From Acidobacteriota bacterium (GTDB lineage: Bacteria; Acidobacteriota; Vicinamibacteria; Vicinamibacterales; JAFNAJ01), in assembly GCA_023384575.1 (NCBI GenBank), contig JAHDVP010000004.1, forward strand, positions 73,851-137,850: a stretch of 64,000 nt of DNA. Reading direction: 5' to 3'. Below the pieces are notes generated by a model. That model was given only the letters and a program-made list of their open reading frames with translations. It was not told the DNA's origin and ran no database searches. A program made the translations under genes and the position numbers. Positions 44,590 through 46,917 of this stretch are shown here, piece after piece. Within the stretch, counting starts at the first letter, position 1. Each line of letters opens with the position of its first letter.

Positions 44590-44618
44590 CCTTGCCCGGC
44601 ACCCGTCGAGCCGGTATA
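44590..44618 (+). promoter_or_regulatory. Promoter of erpA
   Basis: TTGCCC (44590-44595) and TATACT (44613-44618) are separated by 17 bp, 37 bp upstream of the erpA ATG, giving a leader of about 30 nt that contains AGGAGATC. Confidence 0.65.
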
Positions 44619-44654
44619 CTCGACGGTACTCTACTTTCCAGGAGATCTCGACCC

Positions 44655-44984
44655 ATGATCAGTGTCACCCCGATGGCCGCCGAGAAGATCACCGAGTTGC
44701 TCACCGAGGAGCAGAAACTCGGTGCCGGGCTGCGGGTGTTCGTGCAGGGCGGCGGATGTTCCGGTTTCCAGTACGGGCTGATGATCGAGGAGGGCGAGGC
44801 CGACGCCGAGGCCGACCGGGTCATCGAGTCGCACGGCGTGCGCCTGTTCGTCGATCCCATCAGCGCGCGCTACCTGCAGGGGGCGGAAGTCGACTTCATC
44901 GACAACCTGTCGGGTGGCGGGTTCACCATTCGCAACCCGAATGCCAAGACGACCTGCGGCTGCGGGTCGTCGTTCAGCGCCTAG
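44655..44984 (+). CDS. erpA: A-type iron-sulfur cluster carrier (ErpA/IscA)
   Basis: 109 aa HesB/IscA-family protein that carries [2Fe-2S]/[4Fe-4S] clusters to apo-enzymes. The three conserved cysteines are in GGGCSGFQYG and in the C-terminal CGCGSSFSA. AGGAG is well placed before the ATG. It is followed about 105 bp later by a Fur-rubrerythrin fusion. Client proteins in this window could include the fumarase and the molybdenum hydroxylase. ErpA versus IscA cannot be told with certainty. Confidence 0.92.
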   Translation: MISVTPMAAEKITELLTEEQKLGAGLRVFVQGGGCSGFQYGLMIEEGEADAEADRVIESHGVRLFVDPISARYLQGAEVDFIDNLSGGGFTIRNPNAKTTCGCGSSFSA

Positions 44985-45088
44985 TCCCAGAACACCGTGA
45001 TGAGGTGTGCGAGGCATCACGGTTCCAGGTGACGGCGAGGCGCGCCGAGACCGAGCCCCCGCAGGACCGGCTGACGCCGGCAACAGAG

Positions 45089-46069
45089 ATGCCGACACCC
45101 GAAGCGGTCATCGACCAGCTCCGTCCCGAGGGCAGCAAGCGGTCGAGCAAGCGCGACCGGATCGTCGACGTGTTCCTGCGCCACGAGGGCCACCTCAGCG
45201 CCGACGACCTGTTCGACCTGATTCGGCAGGAGGACCACCGAATCAGCCGGGCGACCGTCTACCGCACGCTGCAGTGGATGGTCGACGCCGGGATCGCCCG
45301 CAAGGTCGATTTCGGCGAAGGGCGGTCGCGGTACGAGCACTCGTATCACCGTCCCCGTCACTTCCACCTGATCTGCAAGGAGTGCAACCGGTCGTTCGAG
45401 TTCCTCAGCAGCGACATCGAGGCGCTGCTCGAGGAGGTGGCGGCCGCGCGCAACTTCGCACCAAAGCAGAGCGTGCTGCAGATCTACGGCGAGTGCGAAC
45501 AGTGCCGGACCGGCAAGGCCCCGGCCGTCGCCGACGGGGCCACCGAACTGCTCTTCGCCCGGGACGCGCTGCGCGTGGCGATCGCCACCGAACGCAGCGG
45601 CCTCCAGTTCTACTCGCGGGCCGCGCGCCTCACGAAGGACTCGCGTGGCCGCGAGGTCTTCCTGCGACTGGCCGAAGAGGAGAAGGAGCACCTCGGCACG
45701 CTCGAGGCGCGCTACCGGGAGCTGCTCGCCCAGGATCCCGACCTCGAGGCGCGGCCGACCTTCCTCTTCTTCAAAGGGGCCGCCAACGGCCTCTTCGCCG
45801 CAGGCACCGAGGAGCTGTCGAAGGGCGTCGACGATCGGCAGGCGCTGATGATCGGCATCCGGTGCGAGCGCGGGTCGCACCGCTTCTTCAAGCGCTACGG
45901 CGAGCGGTTCGAGGACTCGGAAGGCAAGCGGATCTTCCTCGAGTTCGCCGAGGAGGAGAAGGACCACCTCGAGCTGCTCATTCGCGAGTACCGGGCGCTC
46001 GTCGAGCGCACGCTCTCGCAGAAACGCAAGGCGCGCCCGGCGGCGCGTCCGCGACGGGCACGCGCCTGA
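45089..46069 (+). CDS. Fusion of a Fur-family regulator with a rubrerythrin-like ferritin domain
   Basis: 326 aa. Residues 1-145 are a Fur/PerR-type regulator: winged helix with SRATVYRTLQWMVDAGIA, a His-rich HSYHRPRHFHLIC metal site, and CxxC pairs C96/C99 and C136/C139. Residues 152-305 are a rubrerythrin-type four-helix bundle with a full di-iron ligand set: E168, E198-x-x-H201, E260 and E290-x-x-H293. It has a basic tail. The two parts could couple iron/peroxide sensing to iron oxidation. Start uncertain: a GTG further upstream (near 45028) is also in frame. Confidence 0.85.
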   Translation: MPTPEAVIDQLRPEGSKRSSKRDRIVDVFLRHEGHLSADDLFDLIRQEDHRISRATVYRTLQWMVDAGIARKVDFGEGRSRYEHSYHRPRHFHLICKECNRSFEFLSSDIEALLEEVAAARNFAPKQSVLQIYGECEQCRTGKAPAVADGATELLFARDALRVAIATERSGLQFYSRAARLTKDSRGREVFLRLAEEEKEHLGTLEARYRELLAQDPDLEARPTFLFFKGAANGLFAAGTEELSKGVDDRQALMIGIRCERGSHRFFKRYGERFEDSEGKRIFLEFAEEEKDHLELLIREYRALVERTLSQKRKARPAARPRRARA

Positions 46070-46917
46070 TCGACCTGCACCTGCACACCACGGCGTCCGA
46101 CGGTCGGCTGGCACCTCGCGATCTCGTCGCCCGCGCGGTCGCCGCCGGCATCTCCGTGCTGAGCGTCACCGACCACGATACGACCGCCGGCCTCGACGAG
46201 GCGGCGGCCGCCGCCTCGGCTGCCGGCCTGACGTTCGTGACGGGGATCGAGGTCACCGCCGTCGAGCAGGCCACCGACGTTCACCTGCTCGGTTACTTCT
46301 TCGACCCGGCCTCAGGCGACCTCGCCGACCTGCTCGCCGCGCAGCGGGCGGATCGCCACCGCCGGGTCGCCGACATCTGCCGGCGTCTCGACGACCTCGG
46401 GTACGGGGTCGACCTCCCCGCCCTCGACCGCCCGGATGCTGAAGGGCAACGGCCCGTCGGCCGGCCGGTCATCGCCCGGGCCCTCGTGGAGGCCGGCCAC
46501 ACCGCGTCGATCCAGGAGGCTTTCGAGCGCTTCCTGGTGCCAGGCCGCCCCGCGTTCGTCGAACGCCGGGGCGTTTCACCCGCTGACGTCGTCTCAGTGG
46601 TAACGCGCGCTGGCGGCCTGTGCTCGCTGGCCCACCCGGGGCTGCTCGACCGCGATGGCTGGATCCGGCCGTTTGTCGCCGGCGGCCTGACCGCGCTCGA
46701 GGTCTTCCACGGCGACCATGGGCCGGCCGACGAGGCTCGGTACGCGGCGCTGGCAGCCGAGCACCGCCTCGCCCAGACGGGCGGGTCGGATTTCCACGGC
46801 GACGATGATGGTCGCACTCGCCGTCTCGGCCGCATTGGCTTGCCCGTGGAGGCGTTCACCGACCTGGTCGCTCGCGCGGTGCGCTTCGGCTGTGCGAGGG
46901 TCCCGAGGTGGGCGTGA
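46066..46917 (+). CDS. PHP-domain metal-dependent phosphoesterase (CTG start proposed)
   Basis: 283 aa PHP-family hydrolase. The first motif LIDLHLHTTASDG begins at the very start, followed by VTDHDTTAG, TGIEVTA, LAHPGLL and a C-terminal GGSDFHGDD, so all metal-ligand motifs are present. Possible activities include 3',5'-nucleoside bisphosphate phosphatase. No ATG, GTG or TTG exists at a sensible place. A CTG at 46066 overlaps the preceding stop as CTGA, mirroring the usual ATGA coupling, and is the best candidate. Confidence 0.85.
   Translation: MIDLHLHTTASDGRLAPRDLVARAVAAGISVLSVTDHDTTAGLDEAAAAASAAGLTFVTGIEVTAVEQATDVHLLGYFFDPASGDLADLLAAQRADRHRRVADICRRLDDLGYGVDLPALDRPDAEGQRPVGRPVIARALVEAGHTASIQEAFERFLVPGRPAFVERRGVSPADVVSVVTRAGGLCSLAHPGLLDRDGWIRPFVAGGLTALEVFHGDHGPADEARYAALAAEHRLAQTGGSDFHGDDDGRTRRLGRIGLPVEAFTDLVARAVRFGCARVPRWA

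Follow-up and report, generated by a model that had tools for sequence, protein, structure and literature searches.

A Fur-family protein fused to a ferritin-like di-iron bundle is the probable Fur of the order Vicinamibacterales

Fur is among the best-studied bacterial regulators and is regarded as a small stand-alone sensor. The protein that very probably serves as Fur in the order Vicinamibacterales, judging by its metal-site residues, its predicted target promoters and its distribution, is a single polypeptide in which a Fur-family repressor is followed by a complete di-iron four-helix bundle, as an initial annotation of its gene had claimed. The gene lies in a 64,000-nucleotide stretch of contig JAHDVP010000004.1 from an Acidobacteriota bacterium (assembly GCA_023384575.1), hereafter the window (Table 1). 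A widespread lineage would thereby rely, often exclusively, on a Fur that also carries a ferritin-type di-iron site, and the sequence suggests that this controller of iron uptake itself probably binds iron and may oxidise it.

The open reading frame runs without interruption from ATG to TGA on the plus strand of the window; in its product, a short linker joins a Fur domain (residues 15-133) to a ferritin-like domain of four helices (residues 151-314). Searched against Pfam with hmmscan, the protein matched FUR (PF01475) over residues 15-133 at E = 1.6e-28, covering positions 3-121 of the 121-position profile and scoring 99.7 bits where 23.1 is the cut-off. Two segments, from residue 159 onwards, matched Rubrerythrin (PF02915; E = 3e-12). 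The worry that a frameshift or sequencing error had joined two genes, or that the fusion arose in assembly, can be dismissed: the junction is uninterrupted in the 50 orthologs of Table 1 and also in more distant fusions at 33-43% identity, and since these orthologs read through it in one frame, the fusion is real. The position just after erpA, pointed out at the start, is conserved in relatives as well, for wherever the contig of an order member extends that far, erpA is the immediate 5' neighbour of the fusion, in the same orientation, and in most order members the PHP-domain gene follows 3' on the same strand. The gap between erpA and the fusion (44985-45088), where a Fur box had been suspected, holds none. 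Its perfect inverted repeat is absent from the orthologous gaps of relatives and was rejected as a Fur box or operator, and the box described below was found at 0 of 57 erpA promoters within two mismatches, so that autoregulation through a feo-type box is rejected too.

Table 1. Features of the fusion locus, in window coordinates, and exact boxes in the host genome (columns: feature, position, strand, basis or remark)
TATACT, -10-like element 5' of erpA	44615..44620	+	TATAAT-like element here in nearly all relatives
erpA, A-type Fe-S carrier, first gene of probable operon	44655..44984	+	directly upstream in relatives
Inverted repeat ACCGTGATG-N12-CATCACGGT, erpA-fusion gap	44994..45023	+	perfect 9-bp arms
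Fur/ferritin-like fusion gene	45089..46069	+	single ORF, 326 aa; 50 aligned full-length orthologs, 64-78% identity
Fur domain, aa 1-142: winged helix, Zn site, regulatory site	45089..45514	+	Pfam FUR, Fur structures, invariant residues
Ferritin-like four-helix bundle, aa 151-314	45539..46030	+	AlphaFold2 of domain; conserved ligands
Basic C-terminal tail, aa 306-326	46004..46066	+	median net charge +8, 53 order members
PHP-domain phosphoesterase-like gene (by eye)	46066..46917	+	abuts fusion stop; start codon uncertain
Exact box 5' of feoAB, host genome			gene name by eye from translation
Exact box 5' of FecA-type TonB receptor, host genome			gene name by eye from translation
Exact box 5' of second TonB receptor, host genome			gene name by eye from translation
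Exact box 5' of PhnD-like ABC substrate-binding gene, host genome	gene at L184:1501-2481 (G000:C3)		name by eye

By sequence and by fold, the best matches of the first half are solved Fur proteins. Its structural zinc site consists of two CxxC pairs (C96/C99 and C136/C139) and its regulatory site of H35, E83, H91, H93 and E104; apart from a gap at H35 in one row, all of these residues are invariant in 55 fusion orthologs of the order, as they are in 20 of 20 aligned distant fusions. Together with the FUR profile match, this bears out the winged helix, zinc CxxC pairs and His-rich sensor site that had been read from the sequence at first. The third metal site of Fur is gone in the order, where R90, mostly F92, and S128 are found, and is partly retained in the distant fusions. 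The fusion shares the numbering of Bacillus subtilis PerR at C96, C99, C136, C139, H91 and H93. Fur carries Glu at the position of PerR's Asp104 (PMC4866751), and every one of the 55 order members and of the aligned distant fusions has Glu at position 104, the PerR Asp being absent. In addition, the host genome encodes one further Fur-family protein, which both NCBIfam and an Asp at position 104 mark as PerR-like, and whose gene lies about 40 bp 5' of a katG catalase-peroxidase gene (L114:8836-11603; G000:C6, about 155835-158602). Hence, of the original label "Fur/PerR-type", the Fur part stands, on Glu104 and on a Fur-like box at iron-uptake genes, and the PerR part is rejected because of residue 104 and the PerR-like paralog next to katG.

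That box came from the wider search for Fur sites that the initial annotation had proposed. Scanning for TGATAATNATTATCA, the classical E. coli-type Fur box, returned 13 sites within three mismatches against 1 for the control, and led to the feoAB promoter and then to the better-defined palindrome TGAGA-N5-TCTCA. Upstream of feoB at 19 feoAB loci of the order, the exact palindrome is present at 14 and missing at five, and TGAAA-N5-TTTCA is found at none, whereas in sister orders with a stand-alone Fur TGAAA-N5-TTTCA is present at four of four feoAB loci and TGAGA-N5-TCTCA at none. This half-site switch (feoAB promoters L154-L183) accompanies a change in the recognition helix, which reads SRATVYRTLQ in the order versus G..TTVYRTLK in stand-alone Fur. 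The host genome contains only four exact copies of the palindrome (reversed control, 0), all of them before transporter genes (Table 1); the copy directly 5' of the PhnD-like gene abuts a TATAAT element. The PerR-like protein of the host could in principle bind some of these sites. Ten near-complete relatives have no PF01475 protein other than the fusion, and eight of these genomes have the feo box, exact in seven (G095, G099, G100, G101, G078, G110 and G058) and with one mismatch in G128. As no other Fur-family protein accompanies the fusion in these eight genomes, we infer that it binds TGAGA-N5-TCTCA. The feoB promoters of genomes with distant fusions show scattered TGAAA-type palindromes only.

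The second half is confidently predicted to be a four-helix bundle. AlphaFold2 gave a mean pLDDT of 91.9 and a pTM of 0.87 for the isolated domain; the full-length model likewise has high-confidence helices at 151-181, 185-215, 249-273 and 278-314, but with a pTM of only 0.54 it does not fix how the two domains sit relative to each other. A Glu4His2 ligand set (E168, E198, H201, E260, E290 and H293) is arranged over the four helices as E / ExxH / E / ExxH. All six di-iron ligands are thus there, as the first reading had it: they are invariant in the 55 order orthologs, save up to two truncated rows, and are also kept in the distant fusions, losses in one family (f43) aside. Across a set of 47 sequences, stand-alone homologs at 24-34% identity among them, E168, Y175, L194, E198, H201, E260 and H293 are invariant and E290 nearly so. 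C259, which adjoins the ligand E260 and is the sole cysteine of the C-terminal half, is invariant in the order and missing from the distant fusions.

Most rubrerythrins, though not all, have a rubredoxin-like FeCys4 domain, and an ExxE in their helix C gives a seventh carboxylate. By Pfam scan and by sequence, the 326-residue fusion has no rubredoxin-like domain, and its helix C lacks ExxE, with E260 followed by S263 at the position of rubrerythrin's second helix-C Glu; Ser, Ala, Thr or Asn occupies it in other fusions. Three of the four archaeoferritin motifs are present (E-x6-Y, ExxH and ExxH), helix C having E-x6-F (E260, F267), and the best Foldseek match is 2FZF, an archaeoferritin relative, at a modest E-value of 4.5e-3. 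The early description of the bundle as rubrerythrin-like therefore holds for its Pfam match and not for its motif set, which is archaeoferritin/bacterioferritin-like (ExxH, ExxH), and the reading as a rubrerythrin peroxidase is not supported, rubredoxin and the helix-C ExxE being absent. Because the motifs resemble archaeoferritin, and because both the extra helix-C Glu and rubredoxin are lacking, ferroxidase activity or iron sensing is a likelier function of the bundle than peroxidase activity. P. furiosus archaeoferritin has measured ferroxidase activity and is a monomer in the absence of iron (PMC3401498).

These features also bear on the notion of a PerR-like one-protein peroxide sensor and peroxidase, in which peroxide would inactivate the sensor site and the rubrerythrin-like domain would destroy the peroxide. 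Glu104 in every fusion, the separate PerR-like protein by katG, iron-uptake genes as box targets, the lack of rubredoxin and Ser263 make it very improbable, even though the Fur/PerR family fold and the PF02915 match would suit it, as would the common operons of perR and rbr in Desulfovibrio and Geobacter (PMC545781). The broader idea of a one-protein sensor-effector, also put forward in the initial annotation, may still hold.

The genome-wide search for this architecture that had been suggested found the fused form conserved in relatives. Within Vicinamibacterales, 136 of 146 genomes, from all 15 families, have the fusion, a few as pieces cut by contig ends. It was not found in G026, G032, G034 and G035 (family f2 of the order), several of which are nearly complete, and these are possible losses. 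The 24 genomes from sister orders of the class have a stand-alone Fur only, at about 40% identity, and among 396 genomes of the phylum 23 more carry the fusion, in ten families outside the class and at 33-43% identity. Among the 77 loci found by a pattern scan of genome contigs, the ones with 63-82% identity are fusions in single open frames from Acidobacteriota MAGs, two of which are labelled Acidimicrobiia; outside Acidobacteriota, this one scan found only single-domain relatives and no fusion. Adjacent genes in G463 (L113:4944-5954) were rejected as a fusion, because the ferritin-like gene there, which has all six ligands, is a separate one lying 18 bp beyond a PerR-type gene. A search of open-licence papers found no report of a Fur-ferritin-like architecture, which domain databases may list. 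In a tree of Fur domains, the order's fusions group together (100/100), and most of the distant ones fall into a second clade (88/83). When the three long-branch fusions L109, L111 and L112 are left aside, the hypothesis that the fusion arose only once is not rejected (AU p 0.655), nor is it thereby shown.

An exception to this pattern of conservation is family f43, most members of which (L102-L108 and L110) have lost one or more di-iron ligands with the Fur half intact. All six are present in L097, the earliest branch of the group, and the loss is therefore likely derived. Most of f43 thus retains the fusion with a degenerate site, which means that an incomplete iron site need not lead to loss of the fused bundle. 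This, like the conserved basic tail typical of the order and the many invariant non-ligand residues there, would fit a bundle that is mainly structural, offering an oligomerisation or docking surface (e.g. for ErpA or a higher-order Fur array) with the iron site secondary. We regard this as rather improbable, since structure alone fails to explain why the few residues common to the order, the other families and stand-alone homologs include the six ligands.

The best explanation of the whole, to which we assign a probability of about one half, is that the order's Fur has an in-built second iron site that tunes repression. The Fur dimer would sense Fe(II) at H35/E83/H91/H93/E104 and act as an Fe(II)-dependent repressor, binding TGAGA-N5-TCTCA before feoAB and the TonB receptor genes and thereby turning iron uptake off when iron is sufficient. 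The archaeoferritin-like bundle would bind a pair of irons as a second module responsive to iron or oxygen, and the occupancy or oxidation of this di-iron site would alter the DNA binding or assembly state of the dimer; repression would therefore track the ferrous pool together with oxygen or redox state. Both iron binding by the bundle and crosstalk between the two domains are steps that we infer. More tentatively, one polypeptide may combine Fe(II) sensing at the Fur site with sensing of iron/oxygen, or of its own ferroxidase turnover, at the di-iron site; it would then be a subtype of Fur that serves most of the order as the main, and often the sole, Fur.

The main rival is a bundle attached as a ferroxidase buffer: it would oxidise Fe(II), retain it and remove H2O2 or O2 close to the regulator, and so either protect Fur and the DNA against Fenton chemistry or compete with the sensor site for iron, without a dedicated allosteric link. 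This rival gains from the motif match to P. furiosus archaeoferritin, an established ferroxidase (PMC3401498), with 2FZF as best fold match, and from the precedent of a regulator paired with a di-iron enzyme in the perR-rbr operons of delta-proteobacteria (PMC545781). We nevertheless think it somewhat unlikely: a regulator is normally scarce and thus a poor iron store, three other ferritin/Bfr/Dps-type genes already exist in the host genome, and family f43, keeping the fusion minus its ligands, is a poor fit to an indispensable enzyme there. The first two of these points, together with the strong conservation of the ligands, are the reasons for favouring the bundle as a second regulatory module.

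If this dual-input reading is true, the master repressor of iron uptake holds its own ferritin-type chemistry, and if the site modulates repression, bacterial iron sensing can couple directly to iron oxidation within a single molecule. Nature provides controls in the sister orders with a plain Fur and in the family where the fused domain no longer has its iron ligands, and the predicted box and its targets open the idea to direct test.

Compared with known systems, the fusion resembles Fur (PF01475) in its winged helix, Zn(Cys)4 site, His3Glu2 site with Glu104 and box at feoAB and TonB receptors; it differs in about 185 extra C-terminal residues that form the di-iron bundle, in the order's loss of the third metal site of E. 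coli Fur (H87/D89/H125) and in the order's half-site, TGAGA instead of TGATA. With P. furiosus archaeoferritin (PF1196 / PF1190, PDB 2FZF) it shares a four-helix bundle without rubredoxin, E-x6-Y in helix A and ExxH in helices B and D, but its bundle is attached to a repressor, is only about 21% identical and has E-x6-F rather than E-x6-Y in helix C. Rubrerythrin (PF02915) belongs to the same Pfam family and is likewise a di-iron four-helix bundle, unlike the fusion in its rubredoxin domain and helix-C ExxE. The perR-rbr operons of delta-proteobacteria also tie a Fur-superfamily regulator functionally to a ferritin-like di-iron protein, but through separate genes, with PerR-type regulators and in the context of peroxide stress (PMC545781). 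Finally, di-iron domains sense iron elsewhere, as the hemerythrin domains of BRUTUS do (PMC12022348): BRUTUS and FBXL5 would work like the fusion in having a di-iron helical bundle that senses iron inside a regulator, although they are eukaryotic ubiquitin ligases whose bundles belong to an unrelated fold family.
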